Assembly (NCBI RefSeq): GCF_013367775.1
Contig: NZ_CP055157.1
Location: 496,001-560,000, forward strand
Source of the DNA: Microbulbifer sp. YPW1
GTDB lineage: Bacteria; Pseudomonadota; Gammaproteobacteria; Pseudomonadales; Cellvibrionaceae
DNA: 64,000 nt
Direction of reading: 5' to 3'
Numbering within the stretch: the first letter of the stretch is position 1; each line of letters begins with the position of its first letter. A model generated the notes under the pieces. The model had not been told where the DNA came from. It did not search any database and saw nothing but the letters and a program-made list of their open reading frames with translations. The position numbers and the translations under genes were made by a program. Shown here in pieces: positions 7,605 to 50,922 of the stretch.

Positions 7605-7606
7605 AT

Positions 7607-21413: not shown

Positions 21414-24400
21414 TTAGAACTTACCGACCATGTTGATAAAGACACCCTGACTGTCGTAATCCAGGTCAGTCAGGTCATCGGAGAAGTCGGTAAAGTTGTA
21501 GCCGATACCCGCCTTGAAGTTGCGTCCCATCTGACGATACAGCGCCAGCAGTGCGCCGCTTTTGCGGTCACCCGCATCTGGCAGGTCGAGCAGGCGGCCT
21601 TCGATCAGCAGGTCCCACTTGTTCACGAAGTGCCAGTCGGCACGTAGCACGTACAGACTCGCGGAGCTGTCGAAGAACTCCGGGTTATCCCGCTCCATAC
21701 TCAACTGACCCAGACGGTAGGCGTACTTGGCGCCCAGGGTCCAGCGCTGGGTGATGTCGTAGTTGGTGTCGACGGAGAAAATATGGCTCTTCTGCACGAA
21801 CTCCGTGGCATTGTTCACGCTGTTGGAGGTGACCAGCACCTGATCCGTGGTGGGCACGTTGTAGAAGTAGGTGTACTTCAGCAGCGTGTTCCAGCGATCG
21901 TTATCCACAGGGCGGTAGGCGTAGCCCATCACCCCTTCGGTGAACTTGCCGTCGTAGAACTCACCTTGTGAACTCTGGCTGTCGGAATAATTGAGCTTGC
22001 CCACAAGACGCCAGTCCGGGTTCATCTGGAAACTGACGGTATTTTTCAACAACCAGGTCTGGCGCTCGTTTTCCAGCACCGTCTCCGGATCACTCAGGGT
22101 CTGCATATTGTCCACACGGTATTCCACCGCACTGGACAGGCGCAGGCTGCCGTCGTTGAAGCCCATGCTCGCGCCCAGGGCGCGGCGCTCGGTTTCTGCG
22201 CCGGTGCGCGGATCTTCCAGGGTACCCGCTTCCACACTGGTGCCGTAATTCCACTTGTCACTGGGAGCCAGATCCACACCCAGGGCGTGGGTGAGGCCGG
22301 TGGAAACGTCGCCGTGGGTGTAGCGCTCTTCGCCGTAGATACTCGTCGTATCGCTGAAGCGACTGCGGAAACCACTGTTCAGATTACCCTTGCGCGCGCG
22401 TACACCGGTGTCGGTACGCTCGTTGTCGAGGGTGTAGTTCAGGTAAAGGTTGGTGCGGTCGGTTACCAGGAAGTCGGTGCCGAGTCGCGCCGCGGTGCCG
22501 GTGTCACCGCCGGACAGTTCACTGTCGAGGGTAAGGCGTTCGCTTACCCGGTAGGCGCCACCGAAACCGATGCGGTTGTTCTCGTCGCGGTTACCGGACA
22601 GCTCGGCGGTGCGCTGCACAAAACCGAACGCATTCCAGTCTGCACCGGAATCGTAACTGGCCTGTACCGCCACATCGGTACGCTCACCCTGGGTCTGGGT
22701 AACCGGCACCACCGGCGACAGGTCCTCGCGGGAATCGGAGCGGGCCGCAGCGGCCAGGCGCCAGCGATCGCTCAGGCGATAGCCCAGTTCCACATCGGTC
22801 GCTTCGGTCTGCAGGCCCTGCTGCTGTTCGCGGGTATCGGTCTTGAGCCCCACATCAAAGCGCTCACCAATCGGTACATTGACTGCCGCACCGTATTGCT
22901 CGGTCTCGCGGGTGGCGAGCTGGCCAGGGCCGGAGAAGCCGGCATCGCGCTGCTGTGCATAAACAGAAGCGGAACCGCGCATGCCCTCAAAGAAATCCCC
23001 AACCTGCAGCGCGGCTTCAAACTTGTTGGCACCGGCCTTGTCTTCGGGATCAAACGGCGCGGCCTGATCAAAGCTGCCCTGTTCGAAACTGCCCGGGTTA
23101 AAGCTGTAACCACCGTCCAGGGAAGAGAGACTGTCGAGGGTATTGCCCTGGCTCTCTGCCACTTCCACCTTCATCCAGGTGCCGGCGGTTTTACGCAGGG
23201 TCAGGTCGACGCCGCTCAGGGAAGACTCGTTGTCCTCTTCATCCTGCTGGCTGGCGCTTACCCCGATTTTCACGTGATCGCCGGCCCAGTAATGGGCACG
23301 GCCACCAACCGCAAGGGTATCCAGATCGTCAAAGCCCGGCGTGTATTCGTAGCGGGCAACCAGGTACTGCGGATTACCGTTGTAGGATCCGTCCTGCACG
23401 ATCAGGTTGTCATTGGCGATGGCCGACAGCGGACGATTCAGCAGCACGCGGCCCTGGATGTAATCCATGTCGTAGTCGATGACCGGGGTGAGGTTTTTCA
23501 CTCCCAGTACGATGCCCGAGTTTTTGTCCCGCACTTCCACACGCAGGCGTTCGGAACCGGTGAGGATATCCTGGTGACGCATGTAGTAGAGAGAGCCACC
23601 GGTACCGCGGAACTCATCCCGTCCAGCAATGGTGCCCGGCTCTGCACTGAAGGCATCGATCTGGAAACGTTTCTCGCCGAAGTCGGTCACGTCGTCGGTT
23701 TCGAAGTGGAAGTTGGCCCCGTACAGCGCGCGGTCAATGTGTGCCAGCTCGTTGTCGGTGTAGGACGCGTTGAAGTTACCCCACAGGCCGTAATCGTCGT
23801 AATTCTCCAGCTTGATATAGAACTTGCCGGAGGTGGGGGCATCTTCCACCACGGTAGAGTCGTCACCAAAGGTGGGGTAGTACAGATCGCTGTCCAGACG
23901 GCGGAACAGCGCGTCCGGGGTTTTTTCCATAAAGTTGGTGAACAGGTCCTCTACCGGGCCCTCTTCGGTATCCGCACTGGCGGACAGCTGCCAGCCGTCA
24001 CCAAAGCTGCCGCTGGTGTAGAACGCCAGGCGGCCATCGTAACTGGCAGAGTTGTCGTAGTGGGTTTCGTCACCGGTCACCAGTGCCGCGGGGCCATTGG
24101 TCTTGTCGCGGGCGATGGTCAGGTCGGCAATACCCACAGTAAACCAGTCGTCGCGATTGAACTCGAGGTCGCGCAGGAACAGTTCGCCGTTGCCGCTGTC
24201 ATCCAGTACCGCCACTTCCACGGTGTGCAGGCCCTTGGCAAAAATTTCCTCGGCAACAAATTCACCGCTGTTGCTGACCGGTACTTCGCGCCCCGCCAGC
24301 CACACGCTGTGGTTTGCGGGAATATCCGCACCGTTCACCAGCACCGCATTGCCATTCACCGGTATATTCTGCTCCGCAAGACGGTTTTCCCCGTAACCCA

Positions 24401-26615
24401 CCAACAGCTCTTTCTCGGTGGTGGTTTCCTGCAGTTGCGGTTCGAAGTTATCCACAATCCACAGGGTCTGCGGACGGGTTTCGTCGAAGCGCTGTTTCCA
24501 GTCGTAAACCCGCAACACGTATTTCAGCTTTTTCAGCGGCGCCTGGTACTCCTCAAAGTCCGCATCCCAGCTGCCCTCACCGTTCTGGTCGAGGGTGACC
24601 ACCGCAATGGGTTCATCGCGCAGGGACTGCTCTTCCTCGAACAGGCGCACTTCCGCGCGGGTGATGAACGACGGATAGTTAGTGTAGCGCTTGAACTGCA
24701 CGCGACTGTCGGCAATCTCGGTCTCCGGGTCATCCGCATAACGGATGGTGCTCGGGAACGCAGTGACGTTCAGACGCGGCTGCATGGTCTGGTTGTCGAA
24801 GCGGAACTGGATATTGGCTTTTTCCAGTGCCACGTCGGTACAGCGCTGCAGGTCGGCGGAATTTTTGTGAGGGTCGTATTCCGGCGCACCGTCCACGGTG
24901 ATACGCATCAGGTTCAGGGCATAGGGGTTGTGGGCCTCGGCCTCCTGCTGAATACGCTCGATCTCGAGACGGTCTTTTTCCGCGAGTACCGCGAGCTCGT
25001 CGTAGAGCACCTGCACTTCTACCCGCGCGCCATCCATGTGGATAAAGCCGGTCTGCACCACGTCTTTGGATTCCACAAAGCCTCGACCTTCGAATTCCAC
25101 CTGCTCGTCTTCCAGGCCCAGGTGCTGCTGTACCGCGCGCATGGTTTTTTCCGCACGCGCCGAGGACAGGCCGACATCATCGCCGTACACCATGGCTTCG
25201 CGGCGTTCCATGCGCTCGTTGTCGCTGTAGCCGATAAAGCTCAGGCGCACATTCTGCTTGCCGGAAACCTCGTCCATCATGCGCTGCATTTGTGCCAGCT
25301 GCGCGCTGGAAATCTGCGGCTCGCCGCTGTCGAGGAAGATCGGCGGCACGTCGCCCGTGGGGGATTCGTGGGCAATGGTGATGGTTTCCGCAGCCGCCGA
25401 TTCCGGACACGCCTGCAGGCCATCGGCAGCGGTTTCCAGTAGATCGTCGTACCAGAACTCCACTTCCACGCGGCGGTTGAGGGCGCGGCCCTTGGCGGTG
25501 TCATTGGCGGCGATGGGCTGGCTCGAACCCTTGCCACTGCTGGTTACCATATAGCCCGGCATATTCAGCTGATCGGCCACCGCCAGCGCTACGCGGCGCG
25601 CTTCCGCGCGGGAGAGTGCCATCTGGTCGTCGTAGAGTTCGGCAGGGCCTTCCGGCAATGGCTTGCCATCGGTGTGACCGACAAAGTGGATGGTGAGATT
25701 GGGTTTATCCAGCAGGGTGTTGCGCACTTCCTGGATACGGCGCACAAACGGCATCGGCAGATCCACCTGCCCCGGTTGCAGTCGCAGCGGCGACACCAGG
25801 TTTTTCAGGCGCGCGCGCTTGTCGGAACCGGCGGTGTAACGCAGTTTACACACGGTTTCCTGGCGACAGACCTGTACCCGGTTCAGCTGAGCCGCTTCGG
25901 CGCGACGCTGGGCATCGCGGGCCTCCTGGTCCAGTTCAAAGTAGCGCAGCTTCACCTCGACGCGACGGTTCAACTCGCGGCCTTTTTCGGTGATGTTTTC
26001 TGTCAGCGGTTCGCTGTCGCCGCGGCCTTCAAATACAACGGCCTCTTCCGGCAGTTCCAGTGCGGTCTGGAAATATTCCGCGACCAGCTGCGCACGGGCA
26101 CCGGTAAAGGCTTCTTTATCTGCGAAGGCATCCAGCTGCTCTTCACTCAGGGGATCGCTGTCGGTGTGGCCGGTAAAGATCAGTTGCAGCTCGTGCGCGT
26201 CTTCCAGTTCGGCGAGTTTTTCCTGTAGTTCTTCCACCAGCTCGGGAGCGATCTCATCGTCGACTTCCCGGTACACCAGCGGCGGGAGTACGTCGGTTTC
26301 CAGCACCGGTTCCTGCGGATCGATAAACGCTTCCGCGTCCTGTACCCACAGCTGGCCAGCTGCGGGAATCAGGGTGGTTTCGGTATTGCTGCCGAGTGGC
26401 TTTTCGCTGTACTCACCGTTGCTCTCGACCCCCGGGGACAGGCCGGGAATCAGCTGCCACCAGGCACTATTGTCTGCAGCGCCCGTCTCAGCAGCATTCT
26501 CGGAAGTCGCATCCTGTGCGAACACGGATACGCTGCTGGCGAGAACAATGGCAAACGCACAACCGGGTTGGATCATTCGCTTCAAGTTAAAAACTCGGTT
26601 AGAAGGACGGAACAT
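21414..26615 (-). CDS. Outer-membrane protein with three OmpA-like domains and a large C-terminal beta barrel
   Basis: The 1733-residue exported protein has a signal peptide of about 34 residues ending VFAQ. OmpA-like peptidoglycan-binding domain 1 covers about residues 115-226 (IFTGHTDSDP, GRELNRRVEV) and domain 2 about 283-391 (HFVGHTDGKP, GRALNRRVEVEF). Domain 3 (about 435-540, SFIGYSDNER) is degenerate, with HTD replaced by YSD and no NRRVE. A middle region of beta-sandwich-like sequence follows. From about residue 870 to the end the pattern is alternating aromatic strands, finishing INMVGKF, a typical barrel end signal. The ATG overlaps the stop of the giant upstream gene by one base (TGATG), so the two are coupled. 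It is the last gene of the eleven-gene cluster. I infer an outer-membrane anchor or pore for the giant protein. Confidence 0.8.
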   Translation of the reverse strand: MFRPSNRVFNLKRMIQPGCAFAIVLASSVSVFAQDATSENAAETGAADNSAWWQLIPGLSPGVESNGEYSEKPLGSNTETTLIPAAGQLWVQDAEAFIDPQEPVLETDVLPPLVYREVDDEIAPELVEELQEKLAELEDAHELQLIFTGHTDSDPLSEEQLDAFADKEAFTGARAQLVAEYFQTALELPEEAVVFEGRGDSEPLTENITEKGRELNRRVEVKLRYFELDQEARDAQRRAEAAQLNRVQVCRQETVCKLRYTAGSDKRARLKNLVSPLRLQPGQVDLPMPFVRRIQEVRNTLLDKPNLTIHFVGHTDGKPLPEGPAELYDDQMALSRAEARRVALAVADQLNMPGYMVTSSGKGSSQPIAANDTAKGRALNRRVEVEFWYDDLLETAADGLQACPESAAAETITIAHESPTGDVPPIFLDSGEPQISSAQLAQMQRMMDEVSGKQNVRLSFIGYSDNERMERREAMVYGDDVGLSSARAEKTMRAVQQHLGLEDEQVEFEGRGFVESKDVVQTGFIHMDGARVEVQVLYDELAVLAEKDRLEIERIQQEAEAHNPYALNLMRITVDGAPEYDPHKNSADLQRCTDVALEKANIQFRFDNQTMQPRLNVTAFPSTIRYADDPETEIADSRVQFKRYTNYPSFITRAEVRLFEEEQSLRDEPIAVVTLDQNGEGSWDADFEEYQAPLKKLKYVLRVYDWKQRFDETRPQTLWIVDNFEPQLQETTTEKELLVGYGENRLAEQNIPVNGNAVLVNGADIPANHSVWLAGREVPVSNSGEFVAEEIFAKGLHTVEVAVLDDSGNGELFLRDLEFNRDDWFTVGIADLTIARDKTNGPAALVTGDETHYDNSASYDGRLAFYTSGSFGDGWQLSASADTEEGPVEDLFTNFMEKTPDALFRRLDSDLYYPTFGDDSTVVEDAPTSGKFYIKLENYDDYGLWGNFNASYTDNELAHIDRALYGANFHFETDDVTDFGEKRFQIDAFSAEPGTIAGRDEFRGTGGSLYYMRHQDILTGSERLRVEVRDKNSGIVLGVKNLTPVIDYDMDYIQGRVLLNRPLSAIANDNLIVQDGSYNGNPQYLVARYEYTPGFDDLDTLAVGGRAHYWAGDHVKIGVSASQQDEEDNESSLSGVDLTLRKTAGTWMKVEVAESQGNTLDSLSSLDGGYSFNPGSFEQGSFDQAAPFDPEDKAGANKFEAALQVGDFFEGMRGSASVYAQQRDAGFSGPGQLATRETEQYGAAVNVPIGERFDVGLKTDTREQQQGLQTEATDVELGYRLSDRWRLAAAARSDSREDLSPVVPVTQTQGERTDVAVQASYDSGADWNAFGFVQRTAELSGNRDENNRIGFGGAYRVSERLTLDSELSGGDTGTAARLGTDFLVTDRTNLYLNYTLDNERTDTGVRARKGNLNSGFRSRFSDTTSIYGEERYTHGDVSTGLTHALGVDLAPSDKWNYGTSVEAGTLEDPRTGAETERRALGASMGFNDGSLRLSSAVEYRVDNMQTLSDPETVLENERQTWLLKNTVSFQMNPDWRLVGKLNYSDSQSSQGEFYDGKFTEGVMGYAYRPVDNDRWNTLLKYTYFYNVPTTDQVLVTSNSVNNATEFVQKSHIFSVDTNYDITQRWTLGAKYAYRLGQLSMERDNPEFFDSSASLYVLRADWHFVNKWDLLIEGRLLDLPDAGDRKSGALLALYRQMGRNFKAGIGYNFTDFSDDLTDLDYDSQGVFINMVGKF

Positions 26616-29600
26616 CAATGGAATCCTCCCTGATCGCCATCATTTCCTAATGCGCGATCCACACTGCGTTTAAGGCCATCGAGCAGCCCGCCCCGACTGG
26701 GCGGCGCCCCTCTACGCCAGAATATTTCGGTTTCGATATTGAGCGGGTAGCAACAATCCAGTGCCGCCCAGTCTTCCGCGATACGTGCCTTGATGGTTTC
26801 AAGACGCGCGTCTACCAGGGCCGGATCTTCATTTTCCGCCAGGTAAGACAGACGCAACACGGAAGGCGCATCTTGCAGTTTTTCCAGCAGCAGTTCTGTG
26901 CGCGAATGCCACTGCGGACGCAACTCGGTGGAACCGGGCTCGAATACCGCTTCCGCCAGGTCCAGACGTACCACGCGATGCAGGCTGGTACCGAAGTTGA
27001 ACTCCAGCATCTTGCCTCGGGTGGCGCGCTCTACCCGCGGGTTTTCCGTGGTCAGGCGGTAGCCGCTCGGCAGGCTGCGGTCGTCCAGCTTCAGTACAAA
27101 GTTGGAACCGCGATCCGGGTTGGGCACTGCCGCACAGGTAATGTGGAAGCGACCGTGGGCGTCGGTGGTGGCCCGCAGGCCCTGCGCCGTCACCACACGC
27201 GCTCCCGGCACACCGCCTTCGCCGCTGTCCTGGTAACCGTTCAGGTTCTTATCGTCGTACACCTTGCCGATCACATCGGTACAGTCGAAGGTCGGGTCGG
27301 GTACCACACGCACCGTCGCAGAAGCTTCACCGGAAGCCTGCTGGCCGGAGAGTTCATTGAACATGCGTGCGCGGTTGACGTACTTGCCTTCGCCCACACC
27401 GGAGCCCACCACCAGCAGCAGCTTCAGGGTGCGGGTCTGCTCGCCCTCGGCGCGCAGATGCGGCCACTGAAGTTGCAGGCCGTTTACCTCCGGCTCGACC
27501 GGGACACCATCCAGATTTGCAGAACCGGCCACATACTTGAAGCCCGCGGGGAAGTAATCCACCAGCTGCAGGTCGGTCAGCGGCACCGCCATGGTGTTGG
27601 TAAAGGTGATGGTGTACGGCACCAGCTGGCTGCGGGTCACATTGGTCATGGCCGAGGTCTTGGTAAGCGCCAGCGCGCCTTCCAGCAGCGGATCCAGGGC
27701 AATGTGGTTGTTGTACAGCTGGCTGCTGCCCGGCTGATTGGTGTCGTCCAGGTTCAGGCGCAGGTAGTAATCCGTTTCACTGGAACGCGCATCCATATCG
27801 ATGGGCGGCGGCAGTTCCGAAAGCTGGATTTCACAGTGATTCGGGGTACCCGGAATCAGGTCCGAAGCACTGCCGAGACAGGCGCTTACATCAAAGGCGC
27901 CGGTTTCGGTACCGGTCTGCGGCGGAATAATCTGGGACGGGCCGGACATATAGTCTTCGTTCGGCACTTCCACTTCGATCAGGTAATCCGCATTCACGGC
28001 ACAGGCCGCACTACTGAAGTTCAGGTCGAACTTGTAGTAACCGCCGGGCAGTGTCACCTGGTCCTGCTGCGCCGGATCTTCGAAACAGCTGTCCGGTAAT
28101 GCCTGGCCACTGGAAGCCTGCAACATGCGGACACGGGCACCGGCGATGGGCCCGCGCACCACAGAATCGTAGATTACGCCGTTGGGAGTAATCGGCAGAT
28201 TCAGGTTCTGCGGGTTGGCACCGGAGCCGATATAGATCTCGCGGATCTGCTGTGGACCATTGGTGAAGTCGGAGCTGGCGATACCCAGGGACGCGGTGGA
28301 CTCCACGGCATTCGGGGCCGAGTAGCGCAACTCGTAATTGGCACCCGCCATTTCCGCACCGTCCATGTTCGGCACCAGGCCGGCGAACTGGAAGTAGCCG
28401 TTCTCGTCACTCTGTACGGTTTCCAAAAACGCGTTGTTGAAGTACAGGTCCACGGTCCAGTTGCTGAGCAGACGCTCTTCACTGTCGGCGGTTTCACTGA
28501 AGTTCACATCGTGCCACAGGTAGCCGCTCAGGTTGGCGATGCCCGGGGTACCGCCGATATCGATGGCCACGGTGGCCTCGTTGTATACGGGCGGATCATT
28601 CCATTTCACCTGTGCGGTATTGAGCACGGTGTAACCCATCGCCAGGTTTTCACCCAGCTTGGCTTCAAAGCGCAGGGTGATGGTTTCGCTCGGTTCCAGG
28701 TCTCCGTAGTTGGTGCTGTAGTCGACGGTGATCAGCGAGCCGTCGACCATCACCCCATCGGGCTGGCCATTCAGGCGCGCGGAGTCTTCCACGTAAGTGA
28801 GTACCCCTTCACCTGCGGTGAGCAGGTCGTCGTAAATACTCACCAGGCTCGCGGGCACCGCACTGATGTTGGTAACACGCACGATGTATTCCAACACCTT
28901 GCCGGACTCGGCAGCACCGCCACCAACTACCGCCACCTCTTTGGTGATGGACAGCTGCTGGGCATCCCCTACCACCACTTCCGTGGGCTGGGCGCCGTTG
29001 CTGCTGTTGCCATCCGCATCGGACAGGGTCAGCGGCAGCTCGACGCTGTAGACACTGCCCTGGTTGCTGATGATGGTGCCGCGCTCGGTGTCGGCATTGA
29101 CCATCACATCGAACACGATCGTCGCACTCTGCGCGGTAGTGATCACGCCCTCACCTTCCGCCGGCATCGGCGGGGTCAGGTCGTCACTGCTTACCGGCAG
29201 ACCCGCCACCAGCGGCGACTCACCGCCGTTATCGGCCACGGCCAGTCCATTCAGGGTGGTGCTGTCGGCAACATAGGTGGTGTTGTCCGGCACCAGATCC
29301 ACCAGGCGGACCTCGGTCGCGTCCTTGCCGCCCATGTTGCTGATGGTGATGGTGTAACGCAGCACGTCTTCCGGATCGACGATTCCAGAGGTCAGGTTAT
29401 CCACCGCCAGTTCCACGGTTTTCTGTACCCGCAGCAGCGGCACGTTACCGACAATATCAATGGTGGGATCGTCGACCACTTCCGTGGTCGGATCATCGGA
29501 AGGCTGCTCATCCACCGCCGTGTTTTCACCACCGGCGCCCAGACCATTGGCAAAGCCCTGGTTGGAAATCACGGTACCGTCGTTGACGTCATTGATGGTC

Positions 29601-42543: not shown

Positions 42544-43151
42544 GGCGCATCCCCCAGGGAAATATCGGGAAAGAGTTCCAGTGTTTCCGGCTTGGCTTCG
42601 GGATCCGGCTGCGCGCCCTCTTCCAGTTTTGGCATGACCTGGGCGCTACGCACCGCATCCATAACGCCAACCAGATGCTCATAGGCCACATCGGGCTCCA
42701 TCAGCAACGTGGAATCGGTTTTATCCGGATAGGTTTCCTTGATACGCAACAGCTGCTCGCGAAGCTGGGCCAGATCATAGATCTCCTCGGTGGGAGGAAT
42801 GATCGGCAGACCATTTTCATCTACCGGCACTTCACCTGCGGCCTCGCCGTCAGCAGGAGCTTCAGCACCCGCCTCTGCACCACTCTGTTGATTCAGGTTG
42901 GGAAAACGCGCGATCACTTTTGAGCCATCGCTGATTTCCAATGCTGTTTTGCGAACGACCACTTCCAGGGTCACTCCGGGGTCTTCCGCTCCGCCCCCGG
43001 CACCGGTGGGCATGTTGAGCTCCAGGATGGTGACCCGGGAAAACACTGCGGAAACCAGCAGAAACGGTACCAGTACCACCATCAGGTTAAGGAAGGCGGT
43101 AATGTCCAGTTCCGGGGTTTCTTTTGTTCTACCGTGACGCCTGCTTCTCAT
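42540..43151 (-). CDS. ExbD/TolR-like subunit (first copy, channel Asp replaced by Asn)
   Basis: The 203-residue protein has a short basic N-terminus and one TM. The TM start reads ELDITAFLNLMVVLVPFLL. Aligned without gaps to the ExbD motif VTPFIDVMLVLL, the essential Asp position is N22; the only nearby acid is D16, at the membrane edge. The periplasmic part carries an acidic Ala/Gly-rich insertion (about 90-110) and the stretch ELNMPTGAGGGAEDPG. It overlaps exbB by one base (TAATG) and the next exbD by four. It may be a structural partner of the Asp-bearing copy in a hetero-oligomer. Family membership is sure; loss of proton transfer is inferred. Confidence 0.87.
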   Translation of the reverse strand: MRSRRHGRTKETPELDITAFLNLMVVLVPFLLVSAVFSRVTILELNMPTGAGGGAEDPGVTLEVVVRKTALEISDGSKVIARFPNLNQQSGAEAGAEAPADGEAAGEVPVDENGLPIIPPTEEIYDLAQLREQLLRIKETYPDKTDSTLLMEPDVAYEHLVGVMDAVRSAQVMPKLEEGAQPDPEAKPETLELFPDISLGDAP

Positions 43152-43936
43152 TACGCGGTTTCCGGCTTGGTCTTTTCTTCGGTAGTGGCTTCAGCTTTCT
43201 GCTGGGCCTGCTGGGTTTGCTGCACGTCGCGGTTAACGGGTTTGGCTTCAGCGGCACCTTTACCTGGCTTGGCTTTCTCGTCCTTTTCCGCATCGCTGCG
43301 GCGACGGGTACCGGAAGACATGATGTTCAGAGCCTTTACGGAAACCATCTCGAGGCTGTCGACGATGCTGCCGGTCAGGGAGTTGAGCAGTGCGTGCACG
43401 ATCAGCAGCGCGATACCCACCATCAGACCAAAGGCGGTGGTGTTCATGGCCACGGAGATACTGGCGGAGAGCAGGTCGGCTTTTTCCGCGGGGTTGGCGT
43501 TGGCTACCGCGGTAAAGGCTTCGATCAGGCCCATAATGGTACCGAGCAGGCCGAGGAGTGTGGCGATGTTGGAGCCGAGCGCGACGTACGGGGTACGTTT
43601 TTCGAGCTGCGGAATGGTCTCCATGATGCTTTCTTCCATGGCAATCTCGATGTCTTCACGGCGGCGTACGGCGCCCTGACGTTCGAGGCCCATGGCGAGC
43701 AGTCGGCCGACACCGGTGTTGTCGTCTTTGACCAGGTTGCGCGCACGGTCAAAGTCGCCAGCATTGAGCACCGGCTGTACTTTTTCCCAGGTAGCGCGGT
43801 TGGTGTGACGCTCGTAGACGAGGCGAACGTAACGTTCGATCGCTACCGCGGCGCCGAGCGCGAATACCACCAGAATGGGGTACATGAATGCACCACCAGT
43901 CTGAAAAAACGCGACTACACTGTTCAAGAAATCCAT
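43151..43936 (-). CDS. MotA/TolQ/ExbB-family proton channel protein
   Basis: This is the inner-membrane channel subunit that, with ExbD partners, converts proton flow into motion. The 261 residues have TM1 at about 15-35 (FMYPILVVFALGAAVAIERYV), a cytoplasmic domain, then TM2 and TM3 around SNIATLLGLLGTIMGLIEAF and NTTAFGLMVGIALLIVHALL, the latter with the conserved Thr pair. A charged C-terminal tail of about 45 residues (KAKPGKGAAEAKPV onward) is longer than in TolQ. The ATG at 43936 is preferred to the adjacent GTG at 43939, with GAGGG upstream. It starts the motor sub-operon and corresponds to AglR of Myxococcus. Confidence 0.92.
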   Translation of the reverse strand: MDFLNSVVAFFQTGGAFMYPILVVFALGAAVAIERYVRLVYERHTNRATWEKVQPVLNAGDFDRARNLVKDDNTGVGRLLAMGLERQGAVRRREDIEIAMEESIMETIPQLEKRTPYVALGSNIATLLGLLGTIMGLIEAFTAVANANPAEKADLLSASISVAMNTTAFGLMVGIALLIVHALLNSLTGSIVDSLEMVSVKALNIMSSGTRRRSDAEKDEKAKPGKGAAEAKPVNRDVQQTQQAQQKAEATTEEKTKPETA

Positions 43937-44033
43937 CACTTGCCCTCTTGGTTTTCTTTCTCGGTTCCGCGGTATTAGTCCGCTTTACCTTGGCTTGACC
44001 CTGATTGGTCGTTCTTTGGTTAGTTTTTCATTT

Positions 44034-44068
44034 GAGCTCTGTCTGGAGCTCGATGGCGGCAAGCCGCC
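44034..44068 (-). other. Two adjacent hairpins in the gap before exbB
   Basis: The 169-base gap between the 106-residue gene and exbB holds GGCGGC-TT-GCCGCC and, directly after it on the transcribed strand, GAGCTC repeated around a six-base loop. Neither is followed by a long U-run. It is the largest gap in the upstream half of the cluster, so mRNA processing or partial termination is possible. No gene is seen there. Confidence 0.4.
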
Positions 44069-44105
44069 TTCAATTTACGTATCTAAACTTCGTAAGCCAC
44101 CTGGC

Positions 44106-44426
44106 TTACTCATCCGTGAGGCTGAGTTCGTAGAACTCCAGCTCTCTTTCAAACACTTCCTTATCCAGCGGCTGCAGGCTCGGGTCCAGCAGGCTGGAGT
44201 TCAGTCCGCTTTCCACACCCACTTCGGAGCTTTTCCACGGCACAATATACAGCGATTTTGGCGCTTCCTTGTTACCGATAATGGAAATACCGGAAAGTGA
44301 CTTCACTTCGTTATCGACTTTTTTTCCGGTTTCCTTTTCTTCGTCCTGGGCGAATGCCTGGGGCAACCCCAGGGAGGAAAGTAGCAGGAGAGAGCCGAGG
44401 GATTTTACGATTATTTTTCCAGTCAT
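44106..44426 (-). CDS. Small exported protein of the Glt-like cluster, unknown function
   Basis: The 106-residue protein has a signal peptide of about 26 residues ending QAFA. The mature part is acidic, with a conserved-looking core SLYIVPWKSSEVGVESGLNS followed by SLLDPSLQPLDKEVFERELEFYEL. No cysteine and no second membrane segment are present, so it is expected to be soluble and periplasmic. Its ATG overlaps the TPR lipoprotein stop by one base (TGATG). Its position between the TPR lipoproteins and the channel genes suggests a periplasmic linker. It could correspond to one of the small Glt proteins, but I cannot assign it by sequence. Confidence 0.75.
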   Translation of the reverse strand: MTGKIIVKSLGSLLLLSSLGLPQAFAQDEEKETGKKVDNEVKSLSGISIIGNKEAPKSLYIVPWKSSEVGVESGLNSSLLDPSLQPLDKEVFERELEFYELSLTDE

Positions 44427-45010
44427 CAGTTGGCCCGCCGTTTCAGGTCTGCCACCCAGATGGAGACTTTGGGATCTTCAGGTTGATATTTCAGGTACTG
44501 CTCGAATTGTGCGAGTGCACAATTCACATCCTGAAGATATAAGTCACACAGAATGCCGAGGTTTTTGATCAGCGGCAGATATTCCGGGTGCAGTGCGAGT
44601 GATTCGGTATAGGTTTTGCGAGCCTCATCAAAGCGTCCCTGGTGTCGATAGAGCACCGCCAGCTCGTTGCTGGCAACCGGGTCCAATGGCGCTGCGCGCA
44701 GGGCTTCAAGGAAGGATTCTTCTGCGTGCTTTTCATCACCGGTACGGAAATAGGCAATGCCCAGATTCACGTAGGGCGCGGACAGACGCTGCTCGCGGGT
44801 AACCACGTCCTGCAACAGTTCAATGGCTTCCGGGTAGCGCTCGCCCTGGATATATTCCACGGCCTGCAGGAAATCCCGGTTGACCCCGCCGGCGACCTTC
44901 ACGTTCATCGGGTCGACCGGGCGATTGGAGGTTTTCGGGCCACTGGCACAGGCGCTCAGCAACAGTGCGGCAACACAGGCCAAAGCGGTGAGGAGGCGTC
45001 TGTAATTCAT
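44426..45010 (-). CDS. TPR lipoprotein (GltE-like)
   Basis: The 194-residue protein has a lipoprotein signal: LLLSAC with the lipidated Cys at about residue 21 followed by Ala-Ser, which favours outer-membrane sorting. About four TPR units follow (for example YPEAIELLQDVV, APYVNLGIAYFRTGDEKHAE, NELAVLYRHQGRFDEARKTY). The C-terminus ends at a last helix (KVSIWVADLKRRAN). The ATG overlaps the preceding gene stop by one base (TAATG). In size, lipidation and TPR content it resembles GltE of the Myxococcus gliding complex. Generic TPR lipoproteins such as PilF are also similar, so the equivalence rests on context. Confidence 0.82.
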   Translation of the reverse strand: MNYRRLLTALACVAALLLSACASGPKTSNRPVDPMNVKVAGGVNRDFLQAVEYIQGERYPEAIELLQDVVTREQRLSAPYVNLGIAYFRTGDEKHAEESFLEALRAAPLDPVASNELAVLYRHQGRFDEARKTYTESLALHPEYLPLIKNLGILCDLYLQDVNCALAQFEQYLKYQPEDPKVSIWVADLKRRAN

Positions 45011-48000
45011 TATCCTTTATCCTCCTCGGTTTCCATTTCGGCGATCACAGCGGGCTCGGCCGATTCGGGCTCTGCCACGGTTTCCTCCTCAAGAGAGTCT
45101 TGCTCGAGAACCTCTTCCTGAGCCTCCCGCGAGGATTCTGCGGGAACCTCTTCAGACGGCGCTTCGGCGACTTCTTCCGGCGCTTCCGGTACGGGAACAA
45201 TGGTCATGACCACATTGCCCGCATCTTCCGGACGGTCATAACGGGCGGGCACCAGGCCGGCCAGCTGACCGATACTTTTACCTACCCAGCGGTTGTAGAT
45301 ACCGGCCGCCATCAGGTCGATGTTTTTCTCGTGAACGGAGATGGCGCGCTCTTCAAACGGATAGATCTGCTCTTCCAGTGCCAGCTCGTACTCTTCGAGC
45401 TCCATGGCGTTCAGGTTGGTCGGACGCTCGGAGTCTTTCAGTGCACGACTGAAGTGCAGGTAGATTTCACCCAGATAGAAAGTCGCAGCGGCAGTGACGT
45501 CGGCGACCTGGTAATCGATCAGGTCACTGAAGGCGTTGACCGCGGTTTTCATCCGGATACGCTTGGTATTGAGGTTCTGCTCCAGTGGTGCAACCAGCGC
45601 AATTTCCCGGAACGCCTCGTATTTTGGCTCTGCCAACTGCAGGGCGGCACTACCGGCGAGATAGCGGGTGCGGTCGTTGCGCTCGTTGCCGCCGCGGGCT
45701 TCGATGCGCACCATTTCCTCAAGCGTTCTGAAGTAGGCCGCGCGGTTGCCGCTGTTGTTGTAGATGTCGGCAATTCGCTGCCGCGTCTCCAGCGCCGGCT
45801 CCATGGGGCTCGGGAACAGTTTGACGTACCGGTTGAGGACGGTGAGTGCCTTGTCATAGCTCTTCGCAGCGCCGTAAAGGTCGGCGGCCTGGGTGAGCGC
45901 TTCGCGGCGCACGTCTTCGTCGTCGGACTCGCGTTCGATGCGCTCAAACTCGGCACCGGCCAGCAGTAGCTGACCGCTCTCCTGGTAAACCACGGCGAGT
46001 TTCTTGGTGACTTCTTTCTGCAGCTCGTGCTCGGGATGGTTTGCGCGGAAGGCCTTGAGCACATTCGCCGCGCGGGCCCAGTTTTCCAGCTGAATAAGTG
46101 AAGCTGCCGCATCGTATTCGGCGGTAGCAAGGATGCTCGCCCCGGGCGCTGCGTTGCGGATGCGCAGGAAGTGTTCGGCCGCGGCCAGGTGATCTTCCGC
46201 ACGACGCGCCACGTCGCCCTGCTGGTAGATGGCACCGGCGAGGTTGTCGATCAGGTCGGCGCGGTCCCTGGCGTCCGCAGCGGTCATGCCGAGCGCTTCG
46301 CGGTAGCCAGCTTCTGCATCCACATAGGCCTCGGTATCAAACGAGGCGTGGGCCACCAGCAACCAGGCGGAGCGACGAATTTCGTGTTCTGCTGCAGGGA
46401 ATTTCTCCAGCAACAGACGACCATTCTGGATGGTTTCTGCAAAGCTCTTCAGCTTGTACAGATCGTCCACCGCGCCCAGCAGGATCTGCGGCGCCTTGGC
46501 GTGTTCGGGGAAGGTTTCCGCAAAGGTCAGGGAAGAGCGGATGATCTCTTTCTGGATTGCGGTCTTCTGCGCGGTGCTGCCCTTGGCGAGATCGTTCTTC
46601 AGGTGTTCGCGATAGGCGAATACCGCCGCGTACCCGGCTTCGCTGGCCTCTTTGTGCGCGGCGTACTGATACGCGGTGCGCTCGTATTCCTGGGCCGCAT
46701 TGAGGAAATCCTTGTTTTCCAGCATCAGGCCGGCGAGCTGGTAGTTGATCTCCGGCGCTTTCGGCTGATCGGCAAAGGATTTCAGGTAACGGCGGTACCA
46801 GTGAATGGCTTCCGCGTAGTTCTCGCTCCGCTTCTTGGCGAACTCTTTATCCTTGGGCTTCACGTTCTGGTAAGCCGCATGATAGTGGCTCGCCAGGTCG
46901 ATCAGGTTGGTCTGCAGGAACTCCACCACGGTGGCGTAATCCTGAATATCGAATACGGTCCAGTACTTCGCCTCCAGGGCGTAGGTATTGGCAAAGTCTT
47001 TCTTCGCTTCCAGCACCAGACGGGGGAAGCCGCCCTTCTGGTAAATCTCGATTACGCGAATGGAGAAGTCCGGAGATACCCGGTGCAGCGGATTGCGCTC
47101 CACAAAAGTGTTGTAGGCCTTAGCGGCGTCCTGATAGCGACGCTTGTCGAGGTAGTACTCACCCAGGTGACTGTATACGTAAGACTCGTAGTCCCGCGCA
47201 CCCTTGCGAGCAAAGTAATCGACGATGGATTCCGCCCCGCCGAGATAGGAAAAGCTCAGGCTGATAACGCGGAAGGTATCTTCGATATGTTTGCGTTCGG
47301 TCTCGTTGGTCTGCTGTTCGAAGTCGTAGCCCTGCTCCACCTTGTAGTCGAGCATGTGTACGAAGTCGTCCAGCGCCATCTCGTACATATCCTGCTTGAA
47401 CAGGGCCCAGCCGCGCTTGTACAGGGCAAGCTCGAAGAAACTGGATGTCTCGCCCATGTCGATGACGCGTCCGTAGGACTCTTCGGCATCGAGGAATTTT
47501 TTGCGGGTGAAGTAGTACTCACCGAGACGGAAAAAGGATTCGTCCAGATGGCGCGAGGCCGGGTACTTGGCCACCAGCTGACGCAATACATTAACCGCCT
47601 CATCTATCTGCCCGGTTTCCTCATAGGCGCGGGACAGCTGGTACATCACCTGATCGTTGCGCTCGTACTGCGGATATTGCACCAGCAGCTTTTTATACAG
47701 CGCGATGGCTTCGCGGGCATTGGCCGCAAGCAGTGCATCCGGATCATCGCCCGGCAGACTGCCGCTGACTTCCGCACCCTCGATGGCCACGGACGCTGTG
47801 GCGCGGGCCTCGAAGTCCGACAGGCTCTCGTCGCCGGTGCGGGCAACGCTGTCCAGTGCGGCCTCGGTTGCCGGTGCTGTTGCGGCAACCGCCGCGGCTT
47901 CCGGCGCATCCAGGTCAGCGCGATTGCCGGTGGTCTTGCGTGCACTGGCCGCCCCAACGGCAGAGGCTACCTCTTCTTCGGAGAGAATCCGGGTTTCGGT

Positions 48001-48318
48001 TGAAGAGCGGTAAGCGCCCTCCTCGGCCCGATGTGCCTGTTTGATCTTGAGGTCCGCAATACGGCGAATGGCTTCCGGAGTCAGTGCGGTTTCCGGGGTT
48101 TCCTGCAGGTATTTCTGGTAACTGGCCAGCGCCTTTTCCAGGCTCCCGTCGATGCGGGTTTCCTGAATTTCGATATCCACTTTCTGCAGGCTGCCAATGG
48201 TCTTGCCACTGTTGCTGGCACAGGCACTTAACAGCAGTGCCGCCGATGCGGCGGACACCATGGCAACCCGATTGATATTCAGGCTGAGCAGTCGTTTATC
48301 CATTTTGCGGTTATTCAT
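45010..48318 (-). CDS. Large TPR lipoprotein (GltD/AgmU-like)
   Basis: The 1102-residue protein has a lipobox (ALLLSAC, Cys at about residue 33). An N-terminal coiled region leads into many TPR-like helical repeats from about residue 185 onward (YPQYERNDQVMYQLSRAYEETG, ASRHLDESFFRLGEYYFTRKKF and others). A Glu/Pro/Ala-rich acidic tail covers the last 60 residues. I chose the ATG at 48318: GGAG lies about ten bases upstream, and it overlaps the end of the preceding gene by eight bases. A longer frame lacks export features, and a second Met five codons on (48303) is possible. Size and repeat type resemble GltD/AgmU, a periplasmic gliding-complex protein. That comparison is from memory, not alignment. 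Confidence 0.82.
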   Translation of the reverse strand: MNNRKMDKRLLSLNINRVAMVSAASAALLLSACASNSGKTIGSLQKVDIEIQETRIDGSLEKALASYQKYLQETPETALTPEAIRRIADLKIKQAHRAEEGAYRSSTETRILSEEEVASAVGAASARKTTGNRADLDAPEAAAVAATAPATEAALDSVARTGDESLSDFEARATASVAIEGAEVSGSLPGDDPDALLAANAREAIALYKKLLVQYPQYERNDQVMYQLSRAYEETGQIDEAVNVLRQLVAKYPASRHLDESFFRLGEYYFTRKKFLDAEESYGRVIDMGETSSFFELALYKRGWALFKQDMYEMALDDFVHMLDYKVEQGYDFEQQTNETERKHIEDTFRVISLSFSYLGGAESIVDYFARKGARDYESYVYSHLGEYYLDKRRYQDAAKAYNTFVERNPLHRVSPDFSIRVIEIYQKGGFPRLVLEAKKDFANTYALEAKYWTVFDIQDYATVVEFLQTNLIDLASHYHAAYQNVKPKDKEFAKKRSENYAEAIHWYRRYLKSFADQPKAPEINYQLAGLMLENKDFLNAAQEYERTAYQYAAHKEASEAGYAAVFAYREHLKNDLAKGSTAQKTAIQKEIIRSSLTFAETFPEHAKAPQILLGAVDDLYKLKSFAETIQNGRLLLEKFPAAEHEIRRSAWLLVAHASFDTEAYVDAEAGYREALGMTAADARDRADLIDNLAGAIYQQGDVARRAEDHLAAAEHFLRIRNAAPGASILATAEYDAAASLIQLENWARAANVLKAFRANHPEHELQKEVTKKLAVVYQESGQLLLAGAEFERIERESDDEDVRREALTQAADLYGAAKSYDKALTVLNRYVKLFPSPMEPALETRQRIADIYNNSGNRAAYFRTLEEMVRIEARGGNERNDRTRYLAGSAALQLAEPKYEAFREIALVAPLEQNLNTKRIRMKTAVNAFSDLIDYQVADVTAAATFYLGEIYLHFSRALKDSERPTNLNAMELEEYELALEEQIYPFEERAISVHEKNIDLMAAGIYNRWVGKSIGQLAGLVPARYDRPEDAGNVVMTIVPVPEAPEEVAEAPSEEVPAESSREAQEEVLEQDSLEEETVAEPESAEPAVIAEMETEEDKG

Positions 48319-50392
48319 CGTCTGCAGTCTCCACCCCTTCGGCCCCATCTTGTGCGGGCGCCTCCAGTTCCGGCGGATTATCTGTGGGCAGAGGCTCGCC
48401 ATCGGGGTTTGCCACCGGCGCCGACTGCTGCATCTGTTCTACCTGCTCGCGGTACTGCTCGACCTTGCGCTCGTCCTCGCGCTGCTCCTGCAGCTCGTTG
48501 GCGCGGTCATAACTGTCGGCGAGGGCAAAGCGGGCCTTGATCTGGTAGCTCTCCAGCTGCGCGCGGCGCTGGTCGAGTTCGTTAATGGCAAGCTGCTCGA
48601 GCATGCTGCCCTGACGGGCCATCAGCTGATCGATACGATCCTGGGCGCGGTTGAGGCCGCCGCGCAGGGAGGCGATCTGATCGGTGTAACCCTCGTAACT
48701 GTGGGTTGCCGCCTGACGGGTGCGCACATAGCGCTGGTAGGTTTCCTGCAGGGTGGCGATCACGCCATCCAGCTCCTGCAGATTCTTGTAGGCTTTGGTA
48801 AGGCGGTCATCAAACTCGCGGGACAGGCGGAATTTCAGCACCCCTTCGAGACGGGCGATACGGTCCCGGGTTTCCTCACTGCTGAGGTTGGGATTGTAAG
48901 CGAGGATTTCGCGCATCTGCTCGAGAATCAGGCGCGCCTCGGTCTCGTCGCTCTTCGCCAGCAGCTCCGGACGGCGGTTGACCAGCAGGTTATCGATACG
49001 TGCGGCGAGGCGCTGACGCTGCTCCAGACGCATCTTGATACGTGCGTCGATCTGGCGGAAGGTCACATCCAGGCCCGGCAGGATTGGCTCGTAATAGCTG
49101 CGGCGCAGGGCGATGATTTCCTCGAACGCGTCCAGGCTCTGCAGCCAGTCGCGGTTGCGCTCGAACAGGTTGTTCAGGTCTTGATAGTTGCGCAGGAACT
49201 CTTGATAGTCATTCGACGCCATCAGGTCCAGCAGGTAATGGGTTTCCGGCGCGCCGGGCAGTTTGCGCAGTTCCACCACCCAGTTTTTCACCTGGCTGGC
49301 CTCTTTACGGCGCAGTGCCTCCAGCAGTTTGCCTTCGCGGATACTGTTAATGGACTGGGAGAGCACGTCTACCTGAGTGCCGAACGCATCCAGTGCCTGG
49401 CCGTAATTCACCGCCGCAGTACTGTGTACATCCAGCTTGCCGTAGGCATAGGGCACTGCCAGCATGGCCTCGTGCACCGCGGCATCGGTAGCGCGACGCT
49501 GCTTCAGCATCTGCCACGGCACCAGTGCGCGATCGTAGCGGCCCGCATTGGCCTCTACCCAGCCAGCACCCAGCAGGGCCTGATCGGAAAATGGTCCGGA
49601 GAGCTGTACGCGGTCAAAATACTGACGGGCGCGGTCGTACTGCTCTTCCTTCATCAGCTGGTTGCCCAGCAGCAGGTTGGTTTTGTCCTGCAGCGCCTGT
49701 TTGGCTGAACCGCTACCCGCGTTACGCCCCAGGCCATCCAGTACCACCACGCCTTTTTCCGTTTCACCAGCTTTCAGCAGTGCGATACCCAAATTGTATT
49801 CGACAAAACCCTGCAGGGATTTTTCGCCCTTCAGGTCTTCGAGCAGCTCTACCGCCTCACTAAAACGGCCCAGCTGCATATACACCCGCGCACGCAGGAA
49901 CTGCTCATCGGCACGCACACGTTCCGGCACCCGCCCCTGAATCAGCTCAAGCGCATGCAATGCGTTGGCGAACTGCTGCTTCTGGTAGTGGATTTTTGCC
50001 AGGCGATAGGCGGCCTCGTTCTTGATCGGCTGTGCCACATTACCCTGCAGCACCTGCTCCATGGCCCGCCCCGCTTCCTGGTGCATGCGGTAAGACAGCT
50101 CGAGGTCACCCACGGCGAATTCCGCCTGGCCGAAGTGCACACTGAACGGATCCAGTTCCGGGTCATCCAGCAGGCGGTGCTGTTTGATTTCGGTATCCAG
50201 GGCTGAGATGGCATCGACGTAGTTGTCCTGGTAGGCATTGAACAATGCCTCACCAAAGAACAGGTCTTTGAGCTCATCGGTATGCAGCGCGCCCGGATCC
50301 ACGGGCGCTTTGGCCTGCACAGGAATACTGTGCAGCGAGGTCAGTGCCGACAGCGTAACGCCGGCAATTGCGCAGGCCAGACGGGGAAACAT
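48311..50392 (-). CDS. Exported TPR and coiled-coil protein of the Glt-like cluster
   Basis: The 693-residue protein has a signal peptide of about 27 residues ending IPVQA. Roughly residues 40-330 are TPR-like helical pairs (YRLAKIHYQKQQFANALHAL, FLRARVYMQLGRFSEAVELL). Residues about 400-655 are long amphipathic helices and coiled coil rich in Arg/Glu/Gln, including RIDNLLVNRRPELLAKSDE. A Pro/Glu/Asp-rich tail of about 35 residues ends ETADDE. The start is two bases from the preceding stop. No lipobox is seen, so a soluble periplasmic scaffold is expected. I do not recognise a named family. Confidence 0.8.
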   Translation of the reverse strand: MFPRLACAIAGVTLSALTSLHSIPVQAKAPVDPGALHTDELKDLFFGEALFNAYQDNYVDAISALDTEIKQHRLLDDPELDPFSVHFGQAEFAVGDLELSYRMHQEAGRAMEQVLQGNVAQPIKNEAAYRLAKIHYQKQQFANALHALELIQGRVPERVRADEQFLRARVYMQLGRFSEAVELLEDLKGEKSLQGFVEYNLGIALLKAGETEKGVVVLDGLGRNAGSGSAKQALQDKTNLLLGNQLMKEEQYDRARQYFDRVQLSGPFSDQALLGAGWVEANAGRYDRALVPWQMLKQRRATDAAVHEAMLAVPYAYGKLDVHSTAAVNYGQALDAFGTQVDVLSQSINSIREGKLLEALRRKEASQVKNWVVELRKLPGAPETHYLLDLMASNDYQEFLRNYQDLNNLFERNRDWLQSLDAFEEIIALRRSYYEPILPGLDVTFRQIDARIKMRLEQRQRLAARIDNLLVNRRPELLAKSDETEARLILEQMREILAYNPNLSSEETRDRIARLEGVLKFRLSREFDDRLTKAYKNLQELDGVIATLQETYQRYVRTRQAATHSYEGYTDQIASLRGGLNRAQDRIDQLMARQGSMLEQLAINELDQRRAQLESYQIKARFALADSYDRANELQEQREDERKVEQYREQVEQMQQSAPVANPDGEPLPTDNPPELEAPAQDGAEGVETADDE

Positions 50393-50394
50393 GC

Positions 50395-50922
50395 TTACCA
50401 GTCCTTGAAATTGATGGCTGACTGGGTTCCGGCGATCTGGATTTCAACAAACTTGGGACCTACCGCCTTTTCTACGCTGAAGCTGGCAGTACCGCTGTAC
50501 TCTTTGCCAGACTTGGATTTGCCGTGGTAACTGACCACCAGCGGATGTGCGCCGGTCTGAACATTGGCGGTGTGGATACGCTGTACACCGCCCTGCTGCA
50601 GGGCTTCGATTTCGCGATAGGTATAAAGGTGGTGAGCAACCACCTGGTTACCGAGCTTGACCTCGACAGACTCGAGGCTGAACTCTTCGCCACTGGCACT
50701 ACCGGCCAGGGAGACAAAGAAAGCAGCCTGGGTATTGGACGGGAACAGGAGCTTTTCTTCCAGCCGGTTCAGCTCGGAAGTCAGGCTGATTACGTCTTTC
50801 TTGACGTCCTGAATCTGTTCATCGAGACCGCGGATTTCTTCGCGACTCACATTCTGGGCATTCGCCAGAACGGATAGTGACAGCAGCATCGCTGTTGTCA
50901 GAGTGATGAGAATTTTGCACAT
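50395..50922 (-). CDS. Small exported coiled-coil protein, first gene of the Glt-like cluster
   Basis: The 175-residue protein has a signal peptide of about 22 residues ending LANA. A heptad-like segment follows at about 28-58 (IRGLDEQIQDVKKDVISLTS), then a beta-rich domain of about 115 residues with phrases such as FFVSLAGSASGEEFSLESVEVKLGNQVVAHHLY and a Lys/Gly hairpin (YHGKSKSGKEYSG). It has no cysteine beyond the signal peptide. It is followed after two bases by the TPR/coiled-coil gene and preceded by a 431-base gap with a CRP-like site. Function is unknown; the coiled coil and sandwich-like domain suggest a periplasmic adaptor. Confidence 0.78.
   Translation of the reverse strand: MCKILITLTTAMLLSLSVLANAQNVSREEIRGLDEQIQDVKKDVISLTSELNRLEEKLLFPSNTQAAFFVSLAGSASGEEFSLESVEVKLGNQVVAHHLYTYREIEALQQGGVQRIHTANVQTGAHPLVVSYHGKSKSGKEYSGTASFSVEKAVGPKFVEIQIAGTQSAINFKDW

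Follow-up and report, generated by a model that had tools for sequence, protein, structure and literature searches.

The Agl-Glt and Agl-Nfs systems are known as surface transporters (PMC3858216, PMC13104615), and a related core of seven genes, gltC, gltD, gltE, gltG, aglR, aglQ and aglS, occurs in Gammaproteobacteria as one cluster of unknown function, together with an additional gene (Luciano 2011, PMC3169522). Such cores were later proposed to be basal transport machines that become specialised by their cargo (Wartel 2013, PMC3858216). Here we describe an array of eleven genes in a window of 64,000 nucleotides from Microbulbifer sp. YPW1 (NZ_CP055157.1, positions 496,001 to 560,000), which lies within a single-contig genome of 4.58 Mb. 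In this array a core of the Agl/Glt kind is followed by the genes for a giant DUF11 repeat protein and for a protein with three OmpA-type domains and a predicted outer-membrane barrel, hereafter the giant and the barrel protein. We propose, with a probability a little under one half (about 0.47), that the array encodes one Agl/Glt-class proton-driven trans-envelope machine whose dedicated outer-membrane cargo would be the giant fibre.

All eleven genes lie on the minus strand and run from position 50922 down to 21414 in the open reading frame (ORF) list of the window, as an earlier note on this DNA had described (Table 1). The kinds of domain that it predicted, namely tetratricopeptide repeat (TPR), MotA_ExbB, two ExbD, OmpA, DUF11 and AgmX/PglI, were each matched by family models. 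Its description of overlapping or near-touching gene ends holds at eight of the ten junctions (overlap or at most 9 bp) and fails at two, where we found gaps of 166 bp between the S106 and exbB genes and of 257 bp between the arm and the giant. Simple promoter and terminator scans at three places returned nothing. The true start of T1130 is most likely an internal methionine, for example residue 29 or 34, and its 92-bp overlap with the upstream gene is thus probably an effect of annotation.

The first nine genes correspond to the Agl/Glt core complex described in 2011 from Gammaproteobacteria. The array and this core have in common two large TPR proteins, a small TPR lipoprotein, an ExbB, two ExbD proteins and an AgmX/PglI arm, encoded in one cluster, and the sizes are similar to those in Table 1 of PMC3169522 (GltC 673, GltD 1191, AglR 245, AglQ 162, AglS 194 and GltE 471 residues), GltE being larger than T194. 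The likeness of T693 to GltC is one of size and place rather than of directly compared sequence, and T194 scored 31.6 bits against the GltE model NF033758, under its cut-off of 225. Relatives of A175 in other cores are about 31-70% identical. For S106, family-model scans of the window proteins gave no match; its hydrophobic-PW stretch recurs in all 19 proteins examined, which include the window copy and come from both kinds of motor distinguished below, three of the 19 having been picked by position alone. S106 is a candidate contact of the arm, and the small Myxococcus protein GltF has been likened to a TonB box (PMC9389320). Unlike the known core, the array has an N-terminal extension of about 150 residues on the arm as well as the downstream giant and barrel genes. 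None of these three features is mentioned in the covered text of PMC3169522 and PMC3858216, Figure S1 and the supplements aside, and among the literature matches listed, no title or abstract start puts a giant of the DUF11 type, or a barrel, next to a core of the Agl/Glt kind. The earlier note had called the whole combination uncharacterised; the nine-gene core had been described in 2011 and the idea of a cargo machine in 2013, and the new part is the linkage to the giant and the barrel.

We conclude that the motor of the array is kin to the Agl/Glt machinery, as judged from sequence comparison with Myxococcus sp. CA023. The window ExbB matched two loci of this genome at 121 and 114 bits and five others at no more than 47.5 bits. 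At the first of the two (L219), both ExbD-like proteins matched downstream of the ExbB match by tblastn, in the same order ExbB-ExbD-ExbD, and at the second (L220) there was one such match, to ExbD-like protein 2. T1130 matched a frame of 1184 codons at 134 bits and 26% identity, with its other five matches in this genome at 75 bits or less; the frame sits on a contig of 15,106 bases, which from its length we took as the mglA-bearing contig. The array therefore holds a GltD-like large TPR protein. It also holds an ExbB/AglR-type channel with two adjacent ExbD/AglQS-type subunits and a GltG-like arm with an AgmX/PglI domain (NF033768, above cut-off). The earlier note had named a better fit to generic TonB-ExbBD systems as the result that should count against it, and this is not what we found: the window ExbB scored 27.5 bits against TolQ and 24.3 bits against ExbB in the PDB, and the curated equivalog models were far from their cut-offs, at 27.3 of 206.2 bits for exbB, 28.1 of 135.35 for exbB2 and 45.3 of 221 for tolQ. 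Its further claim that the first nine parts are of the kinds found in the Glt/Agl motor stood for the ExbB, the ExbD proteins, the GltD-like protein and the AgmX/PglI arm. The equivalog models of GltG and GltJ stayed far from their cut-offs, at 66.5 of 650 and 26.6 of 450 bits.

The arm of the array consists of a charged N-terminal part of about 150 residues that is poor in proline and glycine, one transmembrane stretch, a Pro/Lys-rich linker and the AgmX/PglI domain. Its N-terminal part aligns in cores linked to a giant and in a few related long-arm cores, and does not align in a second kind of core, in which the shorter arms match from about residue 148 or later and are encoded by frames of some 310-390 codons, one of which is broken.

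The giant has 4568 residues counted from the first likely ATG, the length that the earlier note had reported, with a mass of 485 kDa and an isoelectric point of 4.05. The last two thirds of the protein are the main region matched by the models for DUF11, TIGR01451 and the isopeptide-type TIGR04226. Domains of the SdrD kind stand near its end, and its tail appears OmpA-like by eye. When the protein was cut in ten equal pieces, pieces 2, 3 and 6 had no Pfam family at E <= 0.01; piece 6 matched the DUF11-type TIGR01451, so the stretch in which no repeats can be recognised is residues 458-1371. A count of DUF11 repeats by regular expression found only six and was dropped.

The barrel protein has three OmpA-type domains, a middle part and a conserved C-terminal region of about 900 residues, which we take to be a beta-barrel. 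Its residues 610-1734, aligned in 92 rows, had one Pfam match, at chance level, when E values up to 1 were allowed, and no known type V translocator domain. Among the best 60 of 80 matches of the barrel profile to PDB chains there was no solved translocon and no SprA, and apart from a few at chance level these matches fall in the OmpA region. We surveyed the OmpA residues in 115 motor-type barrels, the window's and 114 of at least 1650 residues from the best 120 matches, the top match being the window's own cluster. In OmpA proteins the Asp/Arg pair presumably binds peptidoglycan, an assumption taken over from work on other members of the family. Domain 1 has Asp153 in 113 of the 115 and Arg175 in all of them. 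Domain 2 has Asp317 in 113, and position 339, which we take to be its expected arginine, holds Arg in 79 barrels and Glu in another 32, the window's own residue being Glu. Domain 3 has Arg488 in all 115 and Asp466 in only 37. The three domains of the earlier note are present, although only domain 1 keeps both key residues in nearly all relatives and the barrel fold is a prediction.

Within Microbulbifer, the long arm and the barrel were each found in 47 of 48 genomes, and the sole exception (G007, 80% complete; G, C and L numbers are our handles for genomes, contigs and loci) has neither. Arm and barrel share one contig and strand in 45 of the 47, at a spacing of 9.0-24.4 kb (median 13.5 kb), and are on different contigs in G041 and G047. 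The giant between them was read directly in the window and in G011, G013, G018, G023, G027 and G044, and is deduced from the gap elsewhere. Two giants stand in tandem before one barrel in G023 (C8) and G027 (C1), and giant plus barrel are duplicated in G011 (C7) and G018 (C1). Giants of 7000-8000 residues, considered for G023 and G027 from spacings of 22-24 kb, proved to be these tandem pairs.

Of the 28 other genera sampled from the order, 12 have a short-arm core, judged by the arm, and none has a long arm. We read 13 short-arm loci from 12 genomes. Six of them hold all nine core genes (L021, L022, L023, L028, L032 and L033); the remaining loci are cut by contig ends, were misread in ORF picking or are without a gene. 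No giant or barrel stands downstream of any of the 13; the sequence available on that side is about 9 kb or longer at nine of them and shorter at four. The window's genome itself carries a second Agl/Glt core, with a short arm (G000:C1:1783982-1792944, L041), and no giant or barrel in the stretch read. At L032 (G074) the core order is altered, with the relatives of A175 and T693 after the arm and not before the GltD-like gene. ORF picking was unreliable in the GC-rich loci L031 and L178 and in parts of L041, L053, L066, L070 and L225, where missing rows do not mean absence.

The linkage extends beyond the genus. We searched a sample of 274 genomes of the class with the arm (E <= 1e-12) and the barrel (E <= 1e-100), and called an arm long when its match started no later than residue 8 (residue 35 in the order sample described below). 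The arm was found in 60 genomes and the barrel in 19. Eight genomes have the long arm, namely the window's own and G212, G339, G094, G324, G176, G241 and G161, which belong to six other families. In each of the eight the barrel match covers the OmpA-domain region (in two pieces in G324), and a full barrel was seen in none of the 52 other arm-bearing genomes, counting as without one G288, which has a barrel fragment on a 3.5-kb contig and is unclassifiable. Fisher p was 1.4e-15 when the long arm was tested against the full barrel, and 5e-7 with any barrel, among the 60 genomes that have an arm; the long-arm, barrel and quality classes for all Fisher tests were assigned by hand from the match tables, and because related genomes are not independent these figures overstate the number of events. 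Some of the other arms lie in frames of more than 400 codons (G288 510, G253 464, G111 452, G168 412 and G279 411), with N-termini that do not align.

Gene order agrees with this association. Arm, giant and barrel are consecutive on one contig in G212, G094 and G241, and the giant starts directly after the arm in five of the seven long-arm genomes outside Microbulbifer, these three together with G324 and G176, in which the motor contig stops inside the giant and the end of the giant lies with the barrel on another contig. The contig of G339 stops 0.4 kb past the arm. With its parts in seven class genomes of six other families, and with the giant right after the arm in five, we rejected the view that the array is an oddity of Microbulbifer. 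The remaining 11 barrel genomes (G083, G113, G141, G187, G201, G220, G232, G239, G288, G298 and G342) have more distant or fragmentary barrels. Another kind of arm is found elsewhere in G187, G201, G232, G288 and G342, and the other six have no arm at E <= 1e-12. According to the earlier note, its single-machine idea would fail if the DUF11/OmpA pair occurred mostly without the motor. The outcome is mixed. The barrels of these 11 genomes occur without the long-arm motor, and the full-barrel subtype accompanies it in all eight of the class genomes that could be judged; as a gene unit, one machine has good support for the full-barrel subtype and not for the pair in general.

We obtained a similar picture in the order of G212. 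Among its 54 genomes the long arm is present in 29, the barrel in 30 and both in 24, nine of the 24 having them on one contig and strand. G359 (match 103-458, 56%) was counted as a truncated long arm. The 22 good genomes comprise 13 with long arm and barrel, none with the long arm alone, two with the barrel alone and seven with neither (Fisher p = 2e-4), and in both genomes with the barrel alone (G366 and G375) the contig stops inside the giant.

The motor and the barrel also agree in their trees. A tree of 26 GltD-like rows, with long branches and uneven composition flagged, separated 11 long-arm motors by one branch (support 92/86, and 100/100 for ten of them) from 13 short-arm motors; the short-arm copy of the window's genome groups with the short-arm rows. 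In a quick barrel tree of 16 rows, the 11 motor-linked barrels were united at 99, apart from five that are not motor-linked. The two backbones are the same, with G161 first, G176 with G094 and G241 after it, and then G212, G339, G324 and Microbulbifer. G324 joins G339 in both, though it belongs to the same family as G212. The agreement of the trees, together with the absence of the long arm from 28 other genera of the order, suggests that motor and barrel may have been transferred as one block.

In several genomes the end of the fibre and the barrel are joined in one open frame. This applies to G176, which has the long-arm motor, and to G201, G187 and G220. The repeats of G201 are Ig-like, not DUF11, and the fused frame of G187 has 11,777 codons (around G187:C2 450000-464000, L079); the part of it that was read shows 20 DUF11 stretches. 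One frame also unites DUF11, OmpA and a distant barrel region in G015, G071 and G063. Since relatives are fused in several genomes, we rejected the possibility that giant and barrel are chance neighbours. At the joint in G176 no signal peptide was seen by eye, which argues against a simple frameshift of two genes, and OmpA domains directly follow the fibre.

No linked motor accompanies the pairs or fusions of G141, G232, G083, G239 and G298 or those among Microbulbifer paralogues. Several such loci (L034, L049, L050 and L051 in Microbulbifer, L081, L082 and L075-L077) consist of a DUF11/SdrD-type gene and then a barrel with no or one OmpA domain, with no motor linked to them. Such proteins, from the Microbulbifer paralogues, Xanthomonadaceae and others, have a C-terminal module related to that of the giant, in adjacent or fused genes. 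Their barrels are about 30-45% identical to that of the array, and less so in L036-L040; the stretches read contain no motor, and the barrels examined have none, one or two OmpA domains. The nearer of them align from window residue 421 or later, with one OmpA domain (G141 and G232) or none in the aligned part, and the distant ones have one or two. Three OmpA domains were met only alongside the motor; OmpA domains as such are not restricted to it. Among the members listed of the short-barrel family, 120 of 120 end in a tyrosine; short barrels of this kinship are also assigned by name to Stenotrophomonas, Pseudoxanthomonas and Luteimonas. Because pairs occur in genomes that have no arm match, the motor seems not to be needed to make the fibre-barrel pair.

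In the machine that we propose, the ExbB-ExbD-ExbD channel would drive the long AgmX/TonB-like arm, with the TPR lipoproteins and the small exported proteins forming a periplasmic scaffold. The barrel would fix the DUF11 fibre by its C-terminus, either in the outer membrane or at it, and would grip peptidoglycan with the OmpA-type domains. Force would then reach the barrel and a fibre lying outside the cell, and the work of the motor would move or tension this unit, with surface adhesion or movement as the physiological output. The precedents for this model are Agl-Glt moving focal adhesions loaded with CglB and Agl-Nfs moving a coat polymer. A tentative extension, only slightly less probable, is that this would be the first Agl/Glt machine with a dedicated single-polypeptide giant cargo, a proton-driven engine of Gammaproteobacteria in which a fibre of about 485 kDa is dragged or tensioned, the peptidoglycan-gripping barrel is of a new kind, and the whole has been inherited and passed between families as a block.

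Several observations weigh against this proposal, beginning with the overstated Fisher figures. In the order sample, five genomes have a long arm without a barrel match (G350, G353, G362, G393 and G399, completeness 57-82%) and six a barrel without a long arm (G354, G363, G364, G366, G374 and G375). G367 and G372 have second long-arm cores, with 37% arm identity, which are followed by opposite-strand genes and have no giant or barrel in about 7.5 kb or more downstream; a long arm hence does not always mean giant plus barrel. In a quick GltD-like tree of 24 rows, in which the place of G161 is unsettled, these two cores stood beside the ten giant-linked motors (96 for the ten, 98 for the twelve). 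An unrelated opposite-strand gene follows the arm of G393, on a short contig. In G161 the ORF after the arm, tried as a giant, encodes a CxxCH protein of the multihaem kind, with 21 motifs over 725 residues, and is cut by the contig end, and giant and barrel are on another contig behind the end of a multihaem CxxCH protein; the two contig ends (G161:C1:1-2176, L084, and the end of G161:C3, L073) have 118 identical bases in common, so what separates arm from giant is probably a single repetitive haem gene in which the break falls. The 257-bp gap in the window allows a separate transcript for giant and barrel. Short-arm cores, including the one in the window's genome, do without such cargo. The G176 fusion, with its OmpA domains directly after the fibre, makes it probable that the fibre end is periplasmic, and the whole fibre could be so too. 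OmpA domains in motor-less barrels weaken the argument for a wall anchor, and the strand count of the barrel region, 60 against 47.1 (standard deviation 3.8) in shuffles, is not decisive. Finally, MglA was found in none of four genomes with the array at E <= 1e-4, in a search that contained no positive genome; the query found Myxococcus at 100% in a separate search.

Some of these points would be expected if the array were two neighbours and not a machine, that is, a core with a general envelope or polysaccharide job beside which a DUF11/barrel adhesin locus has settled and been co-inherited. Cores without the pair are common (the 52 class genomes with other arms and 12 other genera of the order), close long-arm relatives lack it, pairs occur without a core, and the gap in the window and the intervening gene in G161 separate the two halves. 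We nevertheless consider this explanation distinctly unlikely, as one motor and one barrel subtype are linked over six other families and 47 Microbulbifer genomes and have agreeing trees. It is somewhat easier to imagine, though we still think it unlikely, that the motor powers export or assembly, with arm and channel opening the barrel or pulling the giant through it in a proton-driven secretion of one giant substrate. Giant and barrel are adjacent or fused, their order of passenger before barrel resembles type V secretion, the sequence of the giant is acidic and repetitive, and the C-terminal region of about 900 residues could make a large barrel; reported precedents are GldLM with type IX secretion and the TonB-dependent transporter Oar, needed for PopC secretion. 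However, fibre-barrel pairs exist in genomes without any arm match, so export seems independent of the arm, and it is mainly for this reason that we prefer movement or tension. The lack of a solved translocon among the PDB matches considered above, and the position of the OmpA domains of G176 between fibre and barrel, which misfits a simple autotransporter, point the same way; the extra OmpA domains speak for this preference less strongly.

A gliding machine proper, like that of Myxococcus, would account for the core parts that match Agl/Glt. We regard it as very improbable, and gliding, a form of the surface motility that the earlier note had offered among its functions, gained no support, given that MglA was not found in the four genomes with the array. 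The GltG and GltJ equivalog models were far under cut-off, and among the matches listed for literature naming Microbulbifer together with gliding motility, none concerns gliding in Microbulbifer by its title or abstract start. Weak TonB_C and TolQ matches might instead point to a generic TonB/Tol system serving TonB-dependent receptors. We find this hardly credible and rejected it, as the curated exbB, exbB2 and tolQ models stayed far under cut-off and the window ExbB clearly preferred two Myxococcus ExbB-ExbD loci over five others.

The nearest gliding counterpart, M. xanthus Agl-Glt with CglB, resembles the array in its proton motor, GltG-like arm, TPR scaffold and outer-membrane proteins, and in the adhesin that we suspect in the array. 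In contrast to M. xanthus, no MglA was found and there is no GltJ equivalog. The N-terminus of the arm is charged and probably helical where M. xanthus GltG has an FHA domain, and the adhesin candidate is a DUF11 giant where M. xanthus has the vWA protein CglB. GltI of M. xanthus is also a giant (4132 residues), but it is a TPR protein without a signal peptide (PMC3169522). As an observation apart, L097 (BNCN01000011.1, recorded as Comamonas sp. KCTC 72670) encodes an MglA that is 99% Myxococcus-type, in a 9-Mb genome with Agl/Glt-like matches, and is probably a mislabelled myxobacterial genome. Outer-membrane exchange by TraA and TraB in Myxococcus likewise pairs a barrel-type OmpA-domain protein with a surface protein, and is not known to involve a motor. 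The array's barrel protein scored 41.7 bits against the TraB model (cut-off 700), with the best stretch in the OmpA region. Type 11 secretion was dropped as a lead, which had arisen mainly from 'DUF11' matching 'DUF1194'.

The Agl/Glt core has been known since 2011 from many non-gliding Gammaproteobacteria without a function, and the linkage, matching subtypes and agreeing trees now tie one branch of it to a specific giant and barrel. If the proposal is right, it would give this branch its missing cargo, and a motor that does move the fibre would be a new case of a proton-driven machine for a protein fibre in bacteria other than Myxococcota and Bacteroidota. Microbulbifer is a genus with harmless, culturable members. 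The question of the giant cargo is directly testable there by deletion and imaging.

Table 1. Features of the window, with the giant-less long-arm cores of two other genomes
Feature	Position	Strand	Basis or remark
A175, small exported protein, core gene 1	50395..50922	-	ORF and N-terminal signal-like stretch
T693, exported TPR protein, GltC-like by size and place	48311..50392	-	TPR_16 41.9 bits
T1130, TPR lipoprotein, GltD-like	45010..48402	-	TPR and lipobox-like LLLSACAS
T194, small TPR lipoprotein, GltE-like	44426..45010	-	TPR match; lipobox-like
S106, small periplasmic (exported) protein, hydrophobic-PW stretch	44106..44426	-	LYIVPW in window copy
ExbB/AglR-like proton channel subunit	43151..43939	-	MotA_ExbB 82.6 bits
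ExbD-like protein 1	42540..43151	-	ExbD 46.1 bits
ExbD-like protein 2	41968..42543	-	ExbD 58.7 bits
Long arm, AgmX/PglI C-terminal domain	40579..41958	-	NF033768 66.4 bits, cut-off 40
Giant DUF11/isopeptide-type repeat protein	26615..40321	-	DUF11 199.7, TIGR01451 256.8, TIGR04226 192.3 bits
Outer-membrane partner (barrel protein), three OmpA-type domains and C-terminal region	21414..26618	-	OmpA 67.5 bits
narG	815-4585	-	nitrate respiration set
NarX/NarQ-like kinase	4872-6761	+	nitrate respiration set
NarK-like transporter	12637-14250	-	nitrate respiration set
moeA	15155-16444	+	nitrate respiration set
TonB-dependent siderophore-type receptor	16732-18837		elsewhere in window
Glycerate 2-kinase-like	56276-57586		elsewhere in window
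tRNA-Leu (gag)	60090-60175		elsewhere in window
glmM	61570-62934		elsewhere in window
Giant-less long-arm cores	G367:C1:736000-745500 (L225); G372:C157 (L227)

Outside the array, positions 815-16444 of the window hold a nitrate respiration set, and the other features listed in Table 1 include a siderophore-type receptor, a glycerate 2-kinase-like gene, a tRNA-Leu gene and glmM.

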